From Trifolium pratense (Eukaryota; Streptophyta; Magnoliopsida; Fabales; Fabaceae), in contig NC_060063.1 of the NCBI RefSeq assembly GCF_020283565.1, forward strand, positions 42,120,856 through 42,184,855: a DNA stretch of 64,000 nt, read 5' to 3'. The notes under the pieces are model-generated. The model was given only the letters and a program-made list of their open reading frames with translations. It was not told where the DNA came from and ran no database searches. Shown here piece after piece: positions 5,035 through 64,000 of this stretch. A program made the translations under genes and the position numbers. Position 1 is the first letter of the stretch; each line of letters begins with the position of its first letter.

Positions 5035-6300
5035 TCACAGCATATAATTTTCGTCTAATTTTTTTAAACGTTGGCTTAAGTTCATGATAGTTTCTCTTAT
5101 GAAACAATTTTGTAATACAAGTACGTGCGTTGGCAACTTCAGTATCACTGGGGATAGTTTTTTTTTAATTGTATTTGTTAGGCTAAGGTTCGAAGAAATG
5201 CAAGGGCTGCAAGTTCAACCCATATAACTGAATGTGAATTATAAATAATTTAGTTCAAGATACACTTGGACACTAAATGTGAATTCCTAGCTCCTTGTTG
5301 TTTAAGTAAGGACAAACATCTCACTACAGACTACAGCAGTTCACATTTTAGTGTCTCTGCATCCCATTTCATATCTTCTAGCTTTATGGTTTTGTGTTTT
5401 TATATTTGAAGTTCTTAAATATAAAGGGTTTCTACAGTACACAAACACACAGGTCAATAATAACCTTAAAATTTCTCTTACGTTTTGTTAGCCTGTAAGA
5501 GTTTATTTAAAAATTGAGAAATAAAAATACAAAAAGCATTTGATGTTATGAAAATTGAAAAACATTACAGTTATGCTAAGTTTTTAAATTGAATAAGATT
5601 AGTTTTTGAGGCAAAACATTAATAATTATTAGCAGACATTTTTATTGAAAAAATTAACATAAAAATCAAAATTAAAAATCAAAATTTCTCTTATGTTGGT
5701 GTCTCGGAGGTTAGTATGTTGATTTCTAATATTAAGAATTTGTTAGTTTTATATCCAAACTTTGAAGTTATGTTTGTTAGATGACAAACAAATATAAGCA
5801 AATATGATTGCTCATACTTGGTAGTCACCATATTTTTGATTTGATTCCTCCTTGTATTGAAACTTCGGTGAATAATGAAATGAGTTATATTTGTGTTGAT
5901 AAAAGGAAAATTTCTCTTGGTTAAAAATCAAAATTAAAACATTCAAATAAATTATACACCTACAGGCTACAGAATAATTTCACGTTATTTTTTTCCCTCA
6001 AAATCCTTTTTTTTTTTTTTTAAGTATTAACCCTCTAGGTCCCAGAGGAAGGGAGATCCGGTAATCAAGAGTTCAGCTGTGAGGTAAGTAAAGTCTGGCA
6101 AATAATTAATCTCACCAGGAATCAAACTCGGATTCTCCTGAACGATTTGTCTTAGTGGAAATTCATTAATCACTTGAGTCCAATGTCTTGGTTTAAAATC
6201 TTACAACAAAAAGTTATTCTATTTTAAAAAATTAACATACAAATCAATTTGCTCAATTGTAAATACTTACCTTTCGAGAGAAACGAGACTAAATTGGTTG
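5035..6300. other. Intergenic region with LINE tail copy and SINE remnant
   Basis: This stretch holds the 3'UTR of eIF2B alpha followed by repeats. At 5691-5912 is a near-identical copy of the LINE RNase H tail found at 7003-7223. At about 6040-6190 the minus strand resembles a tRNA-derived SINE, with B-box-like GTTTGATTCCTGG. No gene is seen. Confidence 0.5.
6040..6190 (-). mobile_element. tRNA-derived SINE remnant
   Basis: Read on the minus strand, the segment carries a pol III B-box-like sequence (GTTTGATTCCTGG) after a stretch typical of plant SINE heads. The A box and tail are poorly defined, so this is a degraded or partial copy. Confidence 0.4.
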
Positions 6301-37374: not shown

Positions 37375-38294
37375 CACTACTAGAAATCTGCCTATTTCCT
37401 GCGGATTTGGGCAAAAAAACTGCATGAAACACATTTCCTGCCGAATTTTCTGCAAATATGGACTTAATTACAACTACTAAACCCCTAACATTAATAGTTA
37501 AGTTACAATTAAACCTACAACTAACTTTAACATAGAGAACATATACATTACAATTAAAATTATTGCTTATAATTACACATGATACCAAACTCTGGAACAC
37601 AAAACTGAAGGCAATAGGATTATTATGATGCATCTAGCTTAATTTATCCTCAAAATTGGAGCAAGAATGTACTGAGCAACAATGAAAGCTTGTTTAGCAG
37701 AACTCCAATAATTTAAAAAAGAAACAGTTCTGATATGAGCCAATAATATCCAATAATATCAGGAACTGTGCTATATACAACTGAAAATTGAGACTTAACC
37801 AAATTGAAAGTCCAGGATAACATGAATTAACCACAACACTCTGCAATACCATAGCTGAAATATTTAATTTTTACACATGCTAAATCGTACAGTATCATTT
37901 TTTAACGTTATATATGCAAAGGCCTATTCTAAATTCTTAATTCTTAATTTCTTATAAATTAAATATTTAATTTTTTAAATTTAACAAAAAAAAACAAAAG
38001 TTACCTGCGGAATTTCCTGAAGTAGTAAAATCCGCATGAAACCTGGGTGCAAAAATTCGCAGGAAAAGCCTTGGGAACACTTGCGGATTTTTCTGAAATA
38101 GCCAAAACCGCAGGAAAGTGATCTATGTGAAGAACCCGTAGGAAAATTCTTGGGAATACCTGCGGATTTTCCTGAAAATATCAAATCCGCAGGAAACGAC
38201 TCCTTAGTGCAAAATCCACAGAAAATCCTTAGGAGTACCTGCGGATTTTTCTCTGCAGGTAAATCCGCAAGAAACTGGAAAATTTCTAGTAGTG
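37375..38294. mobile_element. Non-autonomous CACTA element, 920 bp
   Basis: It begins CACTACTAGAAAT and ends ATTTCTAGTAGTG, the conserved CACTA inverted ends. Subterminal words of the type CCTGCGGATTT / AAATCCGCAGG repeat many times near both ends, mostly at the right. The flanking triplets TGT and TAT differ by one base. No transposase is present. Open frames on the minus strand (37328-37633, 37981-38184) are made by the repeats. Confidence 0.75.
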
Positions 38295-41653: not shown

Positions 41654-41913
41654 CACTACTAGAAAAAAAATCAATCTGGGACGGAAAAATCCGTCACACA
41701 ATAGTTGAAAATTTCGTCCCAAAATATTTTCGGGACGGAATTTGTGACAAATATATTTCGTCGCAATTCGCTCGTCGTAAATCTTTCGGGACGGAAAATT
41801 TCACTCCGTCGCACATTTGGGACGGAATGTGAGACGGAAAATATAAATTTTATTGACATAAATCTTTCAATCCGTCCCAAAATTTGTGACAGATTTAAAA
41901 TTTCCGTCCCAAT
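41654..41913 (+). mobile_element. CACTA element, left end only
   Basis: CACTACTAGAAAAAAAATC at 41654 is followed by subterminal repeats of GGGACGGA / TCCGTCCC type in both orientations. No matching right end follows. The repeat array stops at the perfect palindrome at 41914-41975. Confidence 0.55.
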
Positions 41914-56608: not shown

Positions 56609-58710
56609 CGAATATTAAAGGTTTATCAATAGATTGTCATTCAGATTCCCATATGAAGATGAGTTGATGATATCTATTTTTAACCTTTTGTTTTCATACG
56701 AATGTCATTCTGATAATTCAAAATTCGAACGTGGGATACAAAAAATTTGGTCAAATATCATTTCTTTCTGATGGGTTCAGCTATGGTTTTATGGAGCCTT
56801 CTGAAATAGTCAACTGTGTCAATCAAATTCGGACGAAGGGATTACATCATGCATTATAAACCCCACATGTTTTCTCTAATTTAAGTACCAATAATTTGAT
56901 CTTTATACTTTATTTTTCTCTCCCTCTCTCTTTTGGAAATTTATTTTTACTTCTTTTAGTTCCTTAATTCCTTCCTTGGACATTGTCATGGGGCCGCAAG
57001 CCCAATATCAACATGCTTTATATTTCAAAACTTTTTTTCCACCTTACAAGAAATGAGCCACTTTTTACCATCCCCACCCCCCAAATGGCCCTATACTTTT
57101 TAAGTGCAAACAATGATATAAAATAAATTTCTCCTTTTACTATATATGCAAAGTGAGTTGAACTTGGATTCTCCTTTGTCCAAAAATTTTCAACTTAATG
57201 TTGGAGGGAGGGAGAGGAGGATGATTGAAAATAATGAGAAGTTTGTCTTTTTAGGTCCCCACTATGAAAACATATAGTTAAGGTCTTCAAGATTGGGGGA
57301 AGATATAGAAAAATAAAGAGAAGGTTATTTTATTTTAGGTCCCCACCATGCCAACTTGTATTTAAGTTCATCAATATTTTGGGACACATGAAAAACAACA
57401 GTTTGCAAAGAGGGGTCACAATCAACCCAATTCATGGAAGATGATGATTACATTATTTCATTTGGCCAGGGAAATTTTTTTTTGGAAGCTAGCTCGTAAT
57501 TAAAGTATGCGATAGAATTAATTAAAATGTACTAACTTACTACTTTAATATTTATTTTTTTGACAGAACTTACTTTGATATTGTAAGTAAGTATTTAGTA
57601 TTATTGTATGATGTAATATGATGATGCAAAGTTATTTAATAAGAATTTGAGATAAAGTATGTAAGTTGCACACAATACAAAATAAAAAATTTGAAAATCA
57701 ATTTGGTTTTCATATGCCACAAAACTATAGCCATATATTGTTGGAATTAATTTACTAATTCATCGTATAAAACATGCTCAACAATAAAGATTAAATCTAT
57801 AATCTTACTTTAGTGCGGAAGCCAAATAACCATATGAGTATGTATATAAAACAGGATCTACGACATGTTAATTTATCAAGATTATAGAAATAGGAATACC
57901 TGGATGACGAATCCATGAAATAAACACTCCTGAAACACAAAGAAAGCTAGCCGAATGACAAGCACCCGTTGGCTTGTGGTTCTTCCTCAACCGGGACTCC
58001 ATATGCCCTAAGCACTCTTCAGATGGGGAGAAGAGGTAATATGCAGTGTGTCTGGTATATTGGGGACAATAGCCTATATATAGTGTGATGGCCAATTAGG
58101 GTTCCCATTATTCCGAAATGGGTCATCCTGACATCCACTCATATTGAGCTCATGTCCAATTAATTAATTAATAATTCTAAATAGAAATCTAATTAGCCTT
58201 ATAACTTTATTTGATCACTTAATCAATTAAGGCTCATAATCGATAAATAGCTAATATAATTATATAAAGATATTTGCCCAGATAATATTATTTGGAATAT
58301 CACAAAATATTCGAACATATATCTTTTTTAAGGGACCTATTGACAAGCATATTTTATGTCTATTTTATCTAGCACTTTTATTAGTAACTTCATATTTAAT
58401 TTAAGCATGTTGGATATTTTACTACCTTTATATTTTGTTTTTATCTACTAGGTGGAGATTGGACCAAGTGTTGGAAATTGAAGGAAATATGAGGATTTTA
58501 GGCAATTAAGGCAACAAAGCTTACCTCTTGATGAAGTCGTGCATCTAGGAAGCACTTATGAGCATTAGTGTCACTTAAAAAGCAAGAGAAGGCAAGCTAA
58601 ACTGATCAGCCAGCCTCCCACGCCCGTGCCGGATGCTATAAAACCAGAGCATTAGTGACCAAGTGTTGTCACGGCCGTGTGGGCTTTGTCACGGCTGTGA
58701 CAGCTTGACT
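56609..58710. other. Gene-free region with LTR fragments
   Basis: From about 57738 a minus-type LTR-like sequence (TGTTGGAATTAATTTAC, later a GTGCGGAAGCC motif) runs to about 58150. From 58440 to 58700 a retroelement fragment with TCACGGCCGTG words is cut by the CACTA element. No gene is seen. Confidence 0.45.
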
Positions 58711-58739
58711 CACTAGTGCAGAAAGGAGATACAACTACT

Positions 58740-59345
58740 GGCCAAACTGACTTTCTACTACTGGCCGCGGCCAGTAGTAAATGCAGTCGACGTTGTAAGT
58801 ACAACTTTCCACGTCGGGTATTTTTATACCCGTCGTGGTATGTGTAGTTTCTTCTGTAATTATTATTTAATATTATGGGGATTTCACGTCGGTTTTTACA
58901 AATACCCGTAGTGGTATGTATGAGATTCCACTACGGGTATTTACAATATCAGTAGTGGTATGTATGGTTTTCAGTTTTTTTTTTTTTTTAAGAATTGGGG
59001 ATTCCACTACGGGTATTTACAAATACCCGTAGTGGTATGTATGAGATTCCACTACGGGTATTTACACATATCCGTAGTGGTATGTATGGTTTCCAGTTTT
59101 TTTTTTTTAAAGAATTGGGGATTCCACTACGGGTATTTACGCATACCCGTAGTGGTATGTATGGTTTCCTTTTTTTTTTTTTAGAATTGAGGATTCCACT
59201 ACGGGTCATTACTCTTACCCGTAGTGGTATGTGTAGTTTTCACTACTGATTGTTATAAATATCAGTAGTGGTATGTTAGTTTTATTTTTTATTTTTTTTT
59301 TCGTTTTTTTGTAGCATCCTGTGCCTGCATATTAGTAGTGGTGTG
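58740..59345. repeat. Left subterminal repeat array of the CACTA element
   Basis: Six or more units pair CCACTACGGGTATTTAC with GTAAATACCCGTAGTGG in opposite orientation, separated by poly-T linkers and GAATTGGGGATT words. The inverted pairs would form short hairpins. Such arrays are the known binding regions for CACTA transposase accessory proteins. Open frames on both strands here are artefacts of the repeats. Confidence 0.85.
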
Positions 59346-60464
59346 TAGTTTTGTAACATGACCAAATTTCATCACAGACCCCAAAGAATGAGCCATTGCT
59401 GCTAGTGCTAAAGCTATATGTTAAAAATCAGTTGCAGTAGCAACCAATAACCACAACAACTGCAGTTGTTTTATGACAATGAATACTCTTCATTTACTAC
59501 TTACTAGGGGTAAATCCAAAAAACACAAAGAACAAATTAAAGAAGTAATATATCCATGATACATGACTTTTGAATAATTTAAGCAATTTTTTCAATCATC
59601 GCAGTTGAAAAAACTATCCGTATAACATATAACCTTAGTTGTAAAACTAGGCATTATAACTCTAATGTAACCTTGTAAAGAACCAGCCATAAGGCTGGCC
59701 ACCAAATAAGCCACACCCCATTCCCTTCCTACTACAATACATTGAATATCCTATTCCCAATTTTCTAGACTGCATTCCTCTTTCCAATGAAATTCGTAAC
59801 TGAATTTAGTATATGAACAGCTCGATTAAACTGAACATGTTTCAATGCCCTGCAAGATAGAAACCAATGCAGACTTCAGAATTATAGTCCCATAAACCAG
59901 GATAAAATTCTGTCAGCTTAAGTTTCAAAGTCACTACAAATCAACTTGTTAAATACATTTCAGAATGTAATATTCAAAAACATCAAGATTAACCATGAAA
60001 CAGGTTATAACATTCAAATATGTGCACAAGAATTTCACAACAGCAAGACCCAATGTTTACTGGTCATACCCAGCTAAAACTTCACTCAAATTTACTATCG
60101 ATAGATAACCTGCTTGTACACTTGTGTGAGAAAGATAAAGACAGCCAACAAACAATAAATATACTGTATAGCAAAAAAAAAAATGCTACAAAGTTAATAA
60201 CATAGTTACATAGCCATGTTTTATCAAAAGGCACGCGATCGCGACACACCTGTGATTTAAAATTAGATGACCAATACCAAAAATAAGTTTTTCATAAAAT
60301 GGTCAATAGGGTTTTAAAACAAGGTTTGCGACAGCGATTTAGACTGCAAAATCAAGGTTTTTGATGCCTTTGTGACCGCAATAAAGGTTGCATACTGATC
60401 AAAAACATTTCAATGCAATATCAAAGACCGCGACGCACATTATATTCTATCGACTACTACTTAC

Positions 60465-61129
60465 CCGCATCCTTTTGGCAATTTCAGCTTTTGGCAGTTA
60501 AACCAAGAATCCCCTGTCTCGGCGATAACAGCAGTGTCACCAGACAACATATTTTGAATATGTTTACAAAGAACATTAACCCTCAAAGGCTCTCTAGGCT
60601 GAGATTTCACAGGCAAACCTTCAGGAACAAATATCCTATAATAATTTTCATAAGCAGTATTATTCTTCTTAATACGCTTCGCGAGCGCGCTAAGAAAATC
60701 CTTCATCAAAACACATAAAAGCACTTTTATCAGCTAATTCCATAAAAGCATCACCTGCTTTTGCTACTCTTATTTTTGGACCAGCTACAAGGACTGGTTT
60801 TACTGCTTTGTTTAGAAACTCAGCTGCTGCTTCCACTGCGGCTTCCAACCCGATTTGATTACTCCATCTGAAAAATCCAAATAAAGACCGAAATATGATC
60901 CGTTTGTTACAGAATTATAAACTCGTTCGGTACAAATTATAAATAATGAGTAAAATTAATCTTACTTTGGAGTTAAGGAAAATGGAACAGGTTCACGACT
61001 GAAAGTCGGGTGAGGAACACCTGCTAAGTTACAGCTTATGCTTATATAAACAGGCTTGCTCTCTTTCAATGCTGTTGAGATTGCAGTATCAATCATTTCA
61101 TGTGCATCTTCCAAGTTATTGATCACAGC
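60465..61129 (-). pseudogene. Captured pyruvate decarboxylase fragment
   Basis: Three consecutive stretches match plant pyruvate decarboxylase. An exon at 60966-61129 has NNLEDAHEMIDTAISTALKE and SREPVPFSLTPK. A properly spaced 98-bp intron follows. An exon at 60465-60867 begins WSNQIGLEAAVEAAAEFLNK. About residue ADKSAF this exon jumps, by an internal deletion near 60716, to [18 protein letters not shown]. It continues to [18 protein letters not shown] and stops at a normal-looking donor (GTAAGT at 60464). The deletion shifts the frame and removes the central domain; the first and last parts of the enzyme are missing. Retained introns show capture at DNA level. It is not an enzyme gene. Confidence 0.88.
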
Positions 61130-61290
61130 CTATAATCAAATCATGTACATAAATCATTTTAATCAACACACTCAATCATTTCATCTACTCATTGTAACTT
61201 ATACTATGATAATCCATGTATCACATACACTTTAGATTGAAAACTTAGTTGAATGTTTATAAGCAATACACCCACTTTAACATTTTATTT

Positions 61291-61578
61291 TTAATATTCA
61301 CTTTCTAATTTGATGAAATTTATGAGTCTCATTATTTTATTTGGTAAGTTTATGAACCACTCTGAGAATTTCTTATTATGCTCTTTTAACACCCATTTTT
61401 CATTCATCTTATCGTGCATTTTCTTTATGATGCTTTTGTGAGCAGACAAGTAAGGTTGAACTTCATCAGTGTTATTCAATATATACAAATGAGCTTGAAG
61501 AATTATATCAATATGCATGCTCTTGACATTTAAACCTTGCGTGCCCACACCATCACATCTTCCATCATGACGAAACAT
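61291..61578 (-). pseudogene. CACTA transposon protein fragment (DUF4218-type)
   Basis: A 95-codon minus-strand frame contains QAHLYILNNTDEVQPYLSAH and NEKWVLKEHNKKFSEWF. This is the pattern downstream of the DUF4218 region in plant En/Spm (TNP2-type) proteins. It is the only recognisable piece of the element's own protein and lies directly upstream of the captured pyruvate decarboxylase exons on the same strand. Confidence 0.75.
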
Positions 61579-62308
61579 TCTCTCGCCCTATTTTAATAAA
61601 AATTCATAGCCTATAACAGAATTTGCATATAGCAGAATTTTTACATAGTAATTTGCATTGCATCTAAGTTTATAGCTTCTATATATGTTTTGAAATAGAA
61701 TCGGTACCTGTAGATGAGACCGTGATTGAACCTTCTAACTTCAAACAAAGATGACAACACCAAAAAACAGCAACACCAGCCCCTGCACAGCAGCAGGCAA
61801 CACGCAGGAGCAGCAACCACCGCCTAACACAGAAAACAGCTCCACCCCTGCACAGCACAAGCATTGAAACCCTCAATTCATACATGATCTAAGAAAAGCA
61901 TCAACCCTCAATTCATACATGATCTAAGAAAAGCATCCACATTAATTTAAATTTTTAATAAAATTCTCTTCAGTTTAGGGCAGAAATTAATGGTTGTGCT
62001 ATCCTTTGAGGATCCATTCCTTGAGGGAATGGCTTGTATAGTGCGAAAATTTTGAATCCATTGCAAATCAAACATTGCAGCTGACTGTGTAACTGCTTGG
62101 ATAGAAAACTAAATTAAAGAATGCAAAAAAAATCATCCTTATAATCATACATGACCATCTAAAGCTGTCCCTAGTAAATAAGCTATAATGAGATTTAATC
62201 CATCTTACAGCAGAAGAAGCAGAAGAAACAGAACATCACAGACCCACACAAAAAGGAAAGAAAAAAAAACAAACACATAGGCACAGCAGCAACGACCGCT
62301 GCTATATA

Positions 62309-62458
62309 GTTGATGAGGCTCTACGCCACCAATACTTGGCACCTCTCCATGATATTAATGAGGAACCTGTTTGCTCTATACCTTTCAATTTTGATTTTGA
62401 GAAACCATCTTTCACTGAACAAGATATCAAGGATCTAATTTGGAGAGAAACTGTTAAG
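62309..62458 (+). pseudogene. Captured MAP kinase C-terminal exon
   Basis: Fifty codons read [20 protein letters not shown] then [20 protein letters not shown] and [10 protein letters not shown]. This is the conserved end of the kinase domain and the C-terminal extension of plant MAP kinases. It is bordered by TATATAG on the left and AAG followed by GTTTAT on the right, so it looks like one exon with splice borders. No other MAP kinase exon is visible nearby. Confidence 0.8.
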
Positions 62459-62704
62459 GTTTATAAGGGTTTTGCAATGTTATAAAATTTTCAAAATCTG
62501 GTATGAAAACTGCAACATTGTCCTAGAGGCACTAGCGGAAAAATAGAATTTTATGATTATTTTTAAATAACAAAACTAAAGAATTTGCATGTGTAACAAA
62601 CATGACCTAAAGTAAAAACTGAAGAGTGAGTGTTACTCTTATATTTACCATACTACATAAACCTTTCAATACATTATCTATATTATGCAGCCATTCCCTT
62701 ATTC

Positions 62705-62870
62705 ATTAGTATGAAGCACAGACACAGACACGAAAACTGACACGTCGACACCAATAATAATCTGAGAAAATGACACAATTTAATATAATTATAAGTGTCG
62801 GTGTGTGTCGGTGTCCGACACCAACGCGTGTCCGACACCGGGACACACCTAATCCGAGGAGTGTCTTTGC
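62705..62870. repeat. Dispersed GTGTCGGTGTC repeat
   Basis: A stretch with GACACAGACACG and GTGTCGGTGTCCGACACC words. Related sequence occurs near 2030-2080 (intron 1 of eIF2B alpha) and 31185-31260. It is probably a short dispersed element; the type was not resolved. Confidence 0.4.
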
Positions 62871-63704
62871 TTCAGATCATTACACTCATTTTCATTGCTA
62901 TGCAGCATCTGTTATCTTCATGCAACCCTATCTGATATGGATTTTTGGGATACCTCTATTTTTCGCAATCTACTATTGATAACACAAATTCAGAATGAGT
63001 TTCTCTATATTCAGTAATGGAATGCTGAGGTAATGTTAAACTTCTTACCCTTCTATTTCTACAGTGCAAAATTGAACAAAAACCAAACGGGGTTGGTTAA
63101 TTATGAATACAATTGAATTCAAAAAGTTCAAATTGCAAACAAGTTGATATATTTATCCTATAAATAACCTACAGCAGTTGACACAAACGCAATAATGGAA
63201 GAGGCATAAAGAATTGAATTTGAATGAAAATAAAAGACAAAAAGTGTGAAAAAAAGCACCTTGAGGAACTAAACACCAACCCAACTCTTTCTATCCAAAC
63301 AAATCGAGCAGAAGCAACCCAACTCCACTGGTAACCTAATAAACCAAATTGAAGATAAAAATTTAAAATATGAATTGAATTTAGGTTATAAAAAAATGAA
63401 GAATAGAGAGAAAAAGGGATTGTTACCGCAGATTGAAGCTTGTCACCGCAGATTGAAGCAAATTTGGAGAATGATAAAGGGGTCGCCGTCTAGGGTTTGG
63501 AGAATGATTGAAGAAATTGGGACGATGGCGCTTTAGGGACGATGGCGATTTGGGAAGAAATTGGGAAGAAATTTGGGAACGATGAAGAATGAAGAAATTA
63601 GGGACGAACGGCGCTGTGTGTGTTCTCGAGGGAAGAAATTGGGAACGATATGAAGAATGAAGAAATTGGGAACGATATGAACAAATTAATTAATTAATGA
63701 ACAC

Positions 63705-63950
63705 TAATAGGGATTCCACTACGGGTGAAATCCAAATCGGTAGTGAAATCCAATTAAAACAAATTTTAATGTAATTACAACATTGCCACCGTGTCTACTT
63801 TTCACTACGGATTTAAGAAAGCCAGTAGTGAAATCCTTTGTCTCTGAACTTTTCACTACCGGTATTAAAATATCAGTAGTAGAATCCTTTAGTCAAATGT
63901 ATTTCACTACTGGTATGTGAATACCAGTAGTGGTATCTCTAAACCAAAAG
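63705..63950. repeat. Right subterminal repeat array of the CACTA element
   Basis: Repeated TTCACTAC / GTAGTGAAATCC words in both orientations match the motif of the left array and end just before the terminal CTACTAGTG. Confidence 0.8.
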
Positions 63951-64000
63951 TCATTTTTCTACTAGTGACTGTTACTATTTTGACAGTTTTTCTTTTGTGA

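Follow-up and report, generated by a model that had tools for sequence, protein, structure and literature searches.

Tgm-Express1, a CACTA transposon of 5.7 kb in the wp allele of soybean, is described as carrying pieces of five unrelated host genes, introns together with exons (PMC1947982). In wheat, 140 CACTA gene-capture events are reported for chromosome 3B (PMC4290129), and CACTA gene capture is known in Chenopodium too. How DNA transposons gain pieces of unlinked genes was given as poorly known in 2007 (PMC1947982), and an account of 2026 raises a possibly undiscovered mechanism for transduplication (PMC13317346). For animal Pack-TIRs, microhomology at the breakpoints is reported and template switching is proposed as the route of capture (PMC8277862). 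The present analysis concerns a CACTA element of 5257 bp in red clover (Trifolium pratense), located at positions 58711-63967 of a 64-kb stretch of DNA (C5:42120856-42184855) that is referred to as a whole as the window; the genome searched comprises 413.6 Mb in 90 contigs. As read from its sequence, the element is probably a young non-autonomous member of its CACTA family, built by repair synthesis with repeated template switching.

Like Tgm-Express1, the red clover element is a legume CACTA of similar size with intron and exon pieces of several unrelated genes, and the soybean case bears out the statement in an earlier reading of this DNA (the original prediction) that multi-gene CACTA capture is known in legumes (PMC1947982). 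Unlike the present element, Tgm-Express1 is described as sitting in the intron of a gene with chimeric transcripts demonstrated (PMC1947982), whereas here the left flank is partly repetitive. What the present element offers beside the soybean one is an identified set of host donors and joins, together with an empty site and another element in which one cargo join recurs. It is, like Pack-CACTA and other Pack-TYPE elements, a non-autonomous DNA transposon in which captured coding DNA lies between terminal inverted repeats; the route proposed for Pack-CACTA is fusion of neighbours (PMC8903248), whereas here the donors are scattered and microhomology is found at several joins. Gene-piece capture is shared with the CACTA elements of wheat 3B (PMC4290129), and the anatomy of one element is resolved here. 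Among single-copy animal Pack-TIRs, 56.9% are reported within 15 kb of their parent (PMC8277862), whereas the donors of this plant CACTA lie on other contigs. A literature search returned no paper joining CACTA gene capture with pyruvate decarboxylase, and the element's absence from print is claimed no further than that. Multi-gene capture by CACTA elements being already known, what the present element adds, in our judgement, is donors and joins in unusual detail.

Ends, insertion site and family of the element

The element begins with CACTAGTGCAGAAAGG... at 58711 and ends with ...CATTTTTCTACTAGTG at 63967, with ACT flanking both. An empty site with a single ACT (L053) is observed on the same contig at C5:41.50 Mb, 0.68 Mb from the element, and aligns with the left flank over 2005 bp (99.05% identity) and with the right flank over 400 bp (97.5%). 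Since L053 joins left flank to right flank with one ACT, the insertion is real, and it is younger than the duplication of its flank unless L053 lost a copy cleanly. The flank itself, 56710-58710, has its second copy on C5 at L053, and its part at about 58211-58317 has many genomic copies, so that the target is partly repetitive DNA. The ends, the ACT on both sides and the empty site uphold the original prediction of a single element with a perfect target duplication. The "clean ends" described there hold in that CACTA termini stand at 58711 and 63967, but the ungapped identity of the two termini, i.e. the terminal inverted repeat, extends over just 7 bp before a gap. Subterminal repeat arrays are present at both ends, and their mutual similarity exceeds that of 200/200 shuffles in each orientation.

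Eleven family stretches were taken (L022 and L025-L034), with L047 added later. Eight relatives with two ends were counted (L022, L027, L028, L029, L030, L031, L033, and L034), and L025, L026, and L032, with at most one complete end in the stretch, were left uncounted. The family termini CACTAGTG... and ...TACTAGTG occur in inverted orientation in all eight (L030 with a one-base variant), as do identical 3-bp target duplications. The idea, raised beforehand, that the two termini might belong to different elements is contradicted by their co-occurrence in 8/8 two-ended relatives; likewise, termini of different families are ruled out by L022 and seven more relatives. Inverted CACTA termini, the 3-bp duplication, subterminal arrays and a TnpD-type transposase in the family place the element, on these sequence characters, in the CACTA (En/Spm) superfamily. 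Its parts are as follows, with PDC denoting pyruvate decarboxylase, MAPK MAP kinase and KEA K+ efflux antiporter.

58708..58710: left copy of the ACT target duplication
58711..63967, no strand: the CACTA element as a whole (5257 bp), duplicated target ACT
58711..59895, no strand: family left end with subterminal inverted-repeat array (about 58807-59350), 98.3% over 1185 bases to L027 (C6)
59896..60183, minus: host segment, apparent KEA-like intron, 97.6% to C3:4981371-4981658
60169..61338, minus: PDC host segment, exons and introns, parent gene C4:7126503-7127928
60465..60867, minus: PDC exon (exon B/C) with internal deletion and frameshift
60868..60965, minus: retained PDC intron (GT...AG), 98 bp
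60966..61129, minus: PDC exon A, matching the parent protein at 55/55 residues
61339..61354, no strand: filler between PDC and TnpD
61355..61573, minus: remnant of the transposase gene TnpD (73 codons), by protein similarity
61571..61925, no strand: internal family part, 2.48 kb from the TnpD piece in L022
61922..62158, no strand: host segment beside a DUF3067 gene, 97.5% to C3:24025403-24025639
62156..62297, no strand: segment related to the family, with an 88% relative at C5:40384529 adjoining a family right end
62294..62458, plus: MAPK host segment, 15 bp of intron and 150 bp of last exon, 165/165 to the MMK2-like gene C6:17589989-17590153
62454..63967, no strand: family right end, closest to L031 on C2, MAPK join common to L047 on C7
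63968..63970: right copy of the ACT target duplication

Host DNA accounts for 1837 of the 5257 bases (35%) by our own partition, and the remainder is largely a mosaic drawn from members of the family. The remnant of the transposon's own protein that had been predicted is the TnpD fragment at 61572-61354 on the minus strand, whose best match is a T. repens protein at 85% identity. The proteins matched by this fragment bear PF02992, PF13960, PF13952, and PF13963; a Pfam search with the fragment alone gave no match. Long TnpD-like stretches, by tblastn putative genes, are present in L032 and in L022, a family element of 6354 bp. TnpD coding runs the same way with respect to the ends in L022 and in the element, so the right end is taken as the 5' side. 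The antisense/sense arrangement proposed in the original prediction stands insofar as PDC is on the minus and MAPK on the plus strand, but not relative to the transposon's minus-strand gene, to which PDC is sense and MAPK antisense. The sequences 61355-61576 and 61571-61925 have many genomic copies, as the family predicts, the counts being lower bounds. Non-autonomous, with captured host coding DNA and with TnpD cut to 73 codons, the element has the sequence make-up of a Pack-CACTA.

Host sequences in the cargo

From the PDC gene the element has 1.17 kb of genomic DNA, of which 60719-61338 and 60169-60715 match C4, with 251 bp of the parent absent between 60715 and 60719. Indels excluded, the two parts differ from the parent at 4/618 and 10/547 positions, respectively; to these are added a 10-bp deletion and two single-base indels. 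Compared with P0001 (T. pratense pyruvate decarboxylase 2-like), exon A is identical at 55/55 residues, the next part at 49/51 and the last at 83/84, and the reading frame is broken at the internal deletion. Introns and splice signals are kept, thus the piece was copied from genomic DNA, and retroposed (cDNA) capture is ruled out by the introns. When all six frames of the element were scanned with Pfam, the PDC domain alone gave a useful E-value, though under its curated cut-off, and the MAPK piece was not detected. In the genome search for copies of the cargo 40 of 151 candidates were scored, and among these the PDC piece matches only the element and the C4 parent. At assumed substitution rates of 6.5e-9 to 1e-8 per site and year, and with constraint on the parent ignored, 14/1165 differences suggest an age of roughly 0.6-0.9 million years for the PDC copy.

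The MAPK piece, identical to its C6 parent, differs from C6:21322174 at 1/165 positions. Its exon part encodes 50 residues, with no difference from P0121 or P0122 (T. pratense MMK2-like kinases), and stops 8 codons short of the parental stop. The parental upstream exons are present in L037 and the sequence changes visibly, which identifies the 15 bases 5' of the exon as the end of an intron. The identical MAPK/right-end join recurs in L047 on C7, with 103 bp of MAPK and without PDC. L031 and L040 contain the sequence at the MAPK/right join without MAPK. The MAPK capture is therefore derived and present in two elements, and the common join has been inherited or passed within the family. L047 (C7:43095300-43100300) itself has a left end and is missing the terminal GTG, 3 bases, at its right tip, as if damaged there.

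The original prediction had placed PDC exons on the minus strand and a MAP kinase exon on the plus strand, and both are found: exon A at 61129-60966, the 98-bp intron and exon B/C at 60867-60465 for the former, and 62294-62458, with 165/165 identity to the C6 gene, for the latter. The genome searches it proposed located the PDC parent on C4 and the MMK2-like parent on C6, as well as a second element (L047) in which part of the MAPK piece is joined in the same way. Its description of a cargo from two unrelated host genes is correct for these parents and falls short in number, as at least four host loci contributed, two more of them on C3. The PDC and MAPK parents are on different large contigs and the element on a third (C5), hence no transposon-free locus with the two pieces at the same distance, a situation the original prediction had considered, came to light. 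An ancestral linked PDC-MAPK locus was not found, the donors being on C4, C6, and C3.

On the minus strand of the C3:4981371 locus, open frames resemble K+ efflux antiporters. NCBIfam models of K+ efflux transporters reach 5.7e-06 at best at this locus, under the curated cut-off, and Pfam finds nothing there; the gene, which from its protein sequence we take to be a KEA, is graded probable. The piece at 59896-60183 apparently falls in an intron of this probable KEA-like gene, and it overlaps the PDC piece in an A-tract (60169-60183). A shorter part of it (59943-60026) recurs in L031, L032, L026 and at C5:33158212, always with its right edge at 60026 and with left edges at 59943, 59956, 59956, and 59975. 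Its shortened form in relatives indicates either a longer history in the family or exchange between members. The remaining donor segment, C3:24025403, lies beyond an exon that matches DUF3067, at a distance of about 430 bp; a weak match to PUB62/63 is found about 475 bp away on the opposite strand.

Joins and the origin of the mosaic

By BLAST, identity to the host donors (one each on C4 and C6, two on C3) is 96.4-100%. Exact microhomology is present at the six joins with clear donors: KEA-like/PDC (1 bp), TnpD/internal (3), internal/C3 (1), C3/L041 (3), L041/MAPK (4), and MAPK/right end (5). The KEA-like/PDC join sits in the A-tract, where a longer run is cut by one parental mismatch. The null was 20000 random joins between the same donors, which are the best found and possibly not the true ones. 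The observed sum of 17 compares with a null mean of 4.5, and 2/20000 random sets reach 17. With the PDC deletion, PDC/TnpD and L027/KEA-like joins included at 0, the nine joins give 17 versus a mean of 7.4 (121/20000). Four of the nine joins have at least 3 bp (3-5 bp) versus a chance mean of 0.6, and 39/20000 reach four. An apparent microhomology of 4-5 bp at the PDC deletion was ruled out when parental DNA revealed a 3-bp filler, and an apparent 11-bp join at 62744-62754 went uncounted, L031 having an insertion there that is flanked by direct repeats. The insertion in L031, of about 540 bp (5129-5669), has inverted ends (GGTTGTCA.../...TGATAACC) with GTCGACACCAA as the flanking direct repeat, and is probably another small DNA transposon.

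From the observed boundaries, empty site, best donors, joins and shared MAPK join we infer template switching as the process, an order of events, and transposase supplied in trans. A break or abortive gap within a family element would have come first. Repair synthesis would then have hopped among templates, namely further family members and four or more host loci (the KEA-like intron, PDC, the segment beside the DUF3067 gene, and the MMK2-like MAPK), with short common sequence guiding several of the switches. The MAPK join would have been inherited or exchanged within the family, and transposase from relatives would finally have inserted the element at its current site. Scattered donors that were copied, joins inside an exon and introns, microhomology and the lack of an inner terminus favour this origin, which we regard as likely.

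Several observations pull the other way. End-joining of several fragments would likewise yield short microhomology. The PDC deletion has its filler and no microhomology, and the PDC/TnpD join has 16-24 bp of unexplained sequence, also without microhomology. Five of the seven mismatches of the KEA-like piece fall in its first 22 bp, so that this edge is not clean. The sole relative of 62156-62297 is at 88% and is probably not the true donor. Within the right part, the element differs from L031, which lacks MAPK, at 4/1496 aligned positions and from L047, which has it, at 12/1609. No substitution unites the element and L047 against L031, and the order of capture is thus not settled by the tree.

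More tentatively, members of this CACTA family may build and stack cargo by repeated template switching during repair, copying every new piece from a locus with a few bases in common and exchanging pieces acquired before (MAPK, and the KEA-like piece that several relatives have in shortened form), which may in turn seed the next switch.

In the model published for Pack-TYPE elements, Pack-CACTA included (PMC8903248; PMC13317346), close insertions lose their inner ends while the outer ends mobilise the interior; here this would have to be repeated at several loci. The element's left part and its right part are indeed closest to different relatives among those read (L027 and L031). However, with four host donors on three contigs the element would have had to land beside all of them one by one, a second exact CACTAGTG terminus is absent from its interior, and the CACTAC/GTAGTG motifs outside the terminal arrays come down to a single one, at 59932. 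The joins within the MAPK exon (one) and within an intron (one) also speak against fusion of neighbours, which is consequently unlikely.

A single event of microhomology-mediated or non-homologous end joining (MMEJ/NHEJ), in which broken ends from different loci were joined inside the element as filler capture, is quite improbable. Short microhomologies and small fillers arise in end joining as in template switching, and excision-linked filler is reported in rice (PMC4423477). The donor genes are, however, still in place where read, which indicates that copies were taken rather than cut fragments: the full length of P0001 is matched piecewise in L021, and residues 53-372 of P0121 are found in L037, the first 52 lying outside the L037 stretch. 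The shared MAPK join implies at least two steps, and L047, with part of MAPK and without PDC, weakens a single-step origin.

Potential of the cargo and meaning for the family

The cargo is unable to encode complete enzymes, its frames being broken or truncated. An RNA effect of the cargo on the parental genes, as the original prediction envisaged, is no more than a possibility. In the subterminal array, 58800-59290 is predicted to form a series of near-perfect hairpins (z -12.5, 100 shuffles), which could be a source of small RNAs for the whole family; Rfam, run over the window at gathering scores, returned nothing. A selected role for the cargo, e.g. silencing of PDC or MMK2 through antisense or small RNA, is suggested by a MAPK piece that runs antisense to TnpD and matches its parent at 165/165 positions, and by left subterminal folding far above shuffles as a small-RNA source might show, but is highly improbable given a sole PDC-bearing copy among the candidates scored, a broken PDC frame, a truncated MAPK, and hairpins that are a family feature outside the cargo.

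Elsewhere in the window, a 920-bp stretch at 37375-38294 has inverted ends beginning CACTACTAGAAAT... and 3-bp flanks, TGT and TAT, one base apart; it is likely a small non-autonomous CACTA of another family. A further putative end, CACTACTAGAAA, is present at 41654.

In this element a recent event is legible almost base by base, through four little-changed donors, mostly exact joins, an empty site, another element that shares one join, and relatives in the pre-capture state at that join. The element favours template switching over neighbour fusion, and it offers a concrete case in which to test exon shuffling and effects on parental genes. Should stacking of cargo by template switching be true, one element with identified host donors would make the route directly testable in plants.

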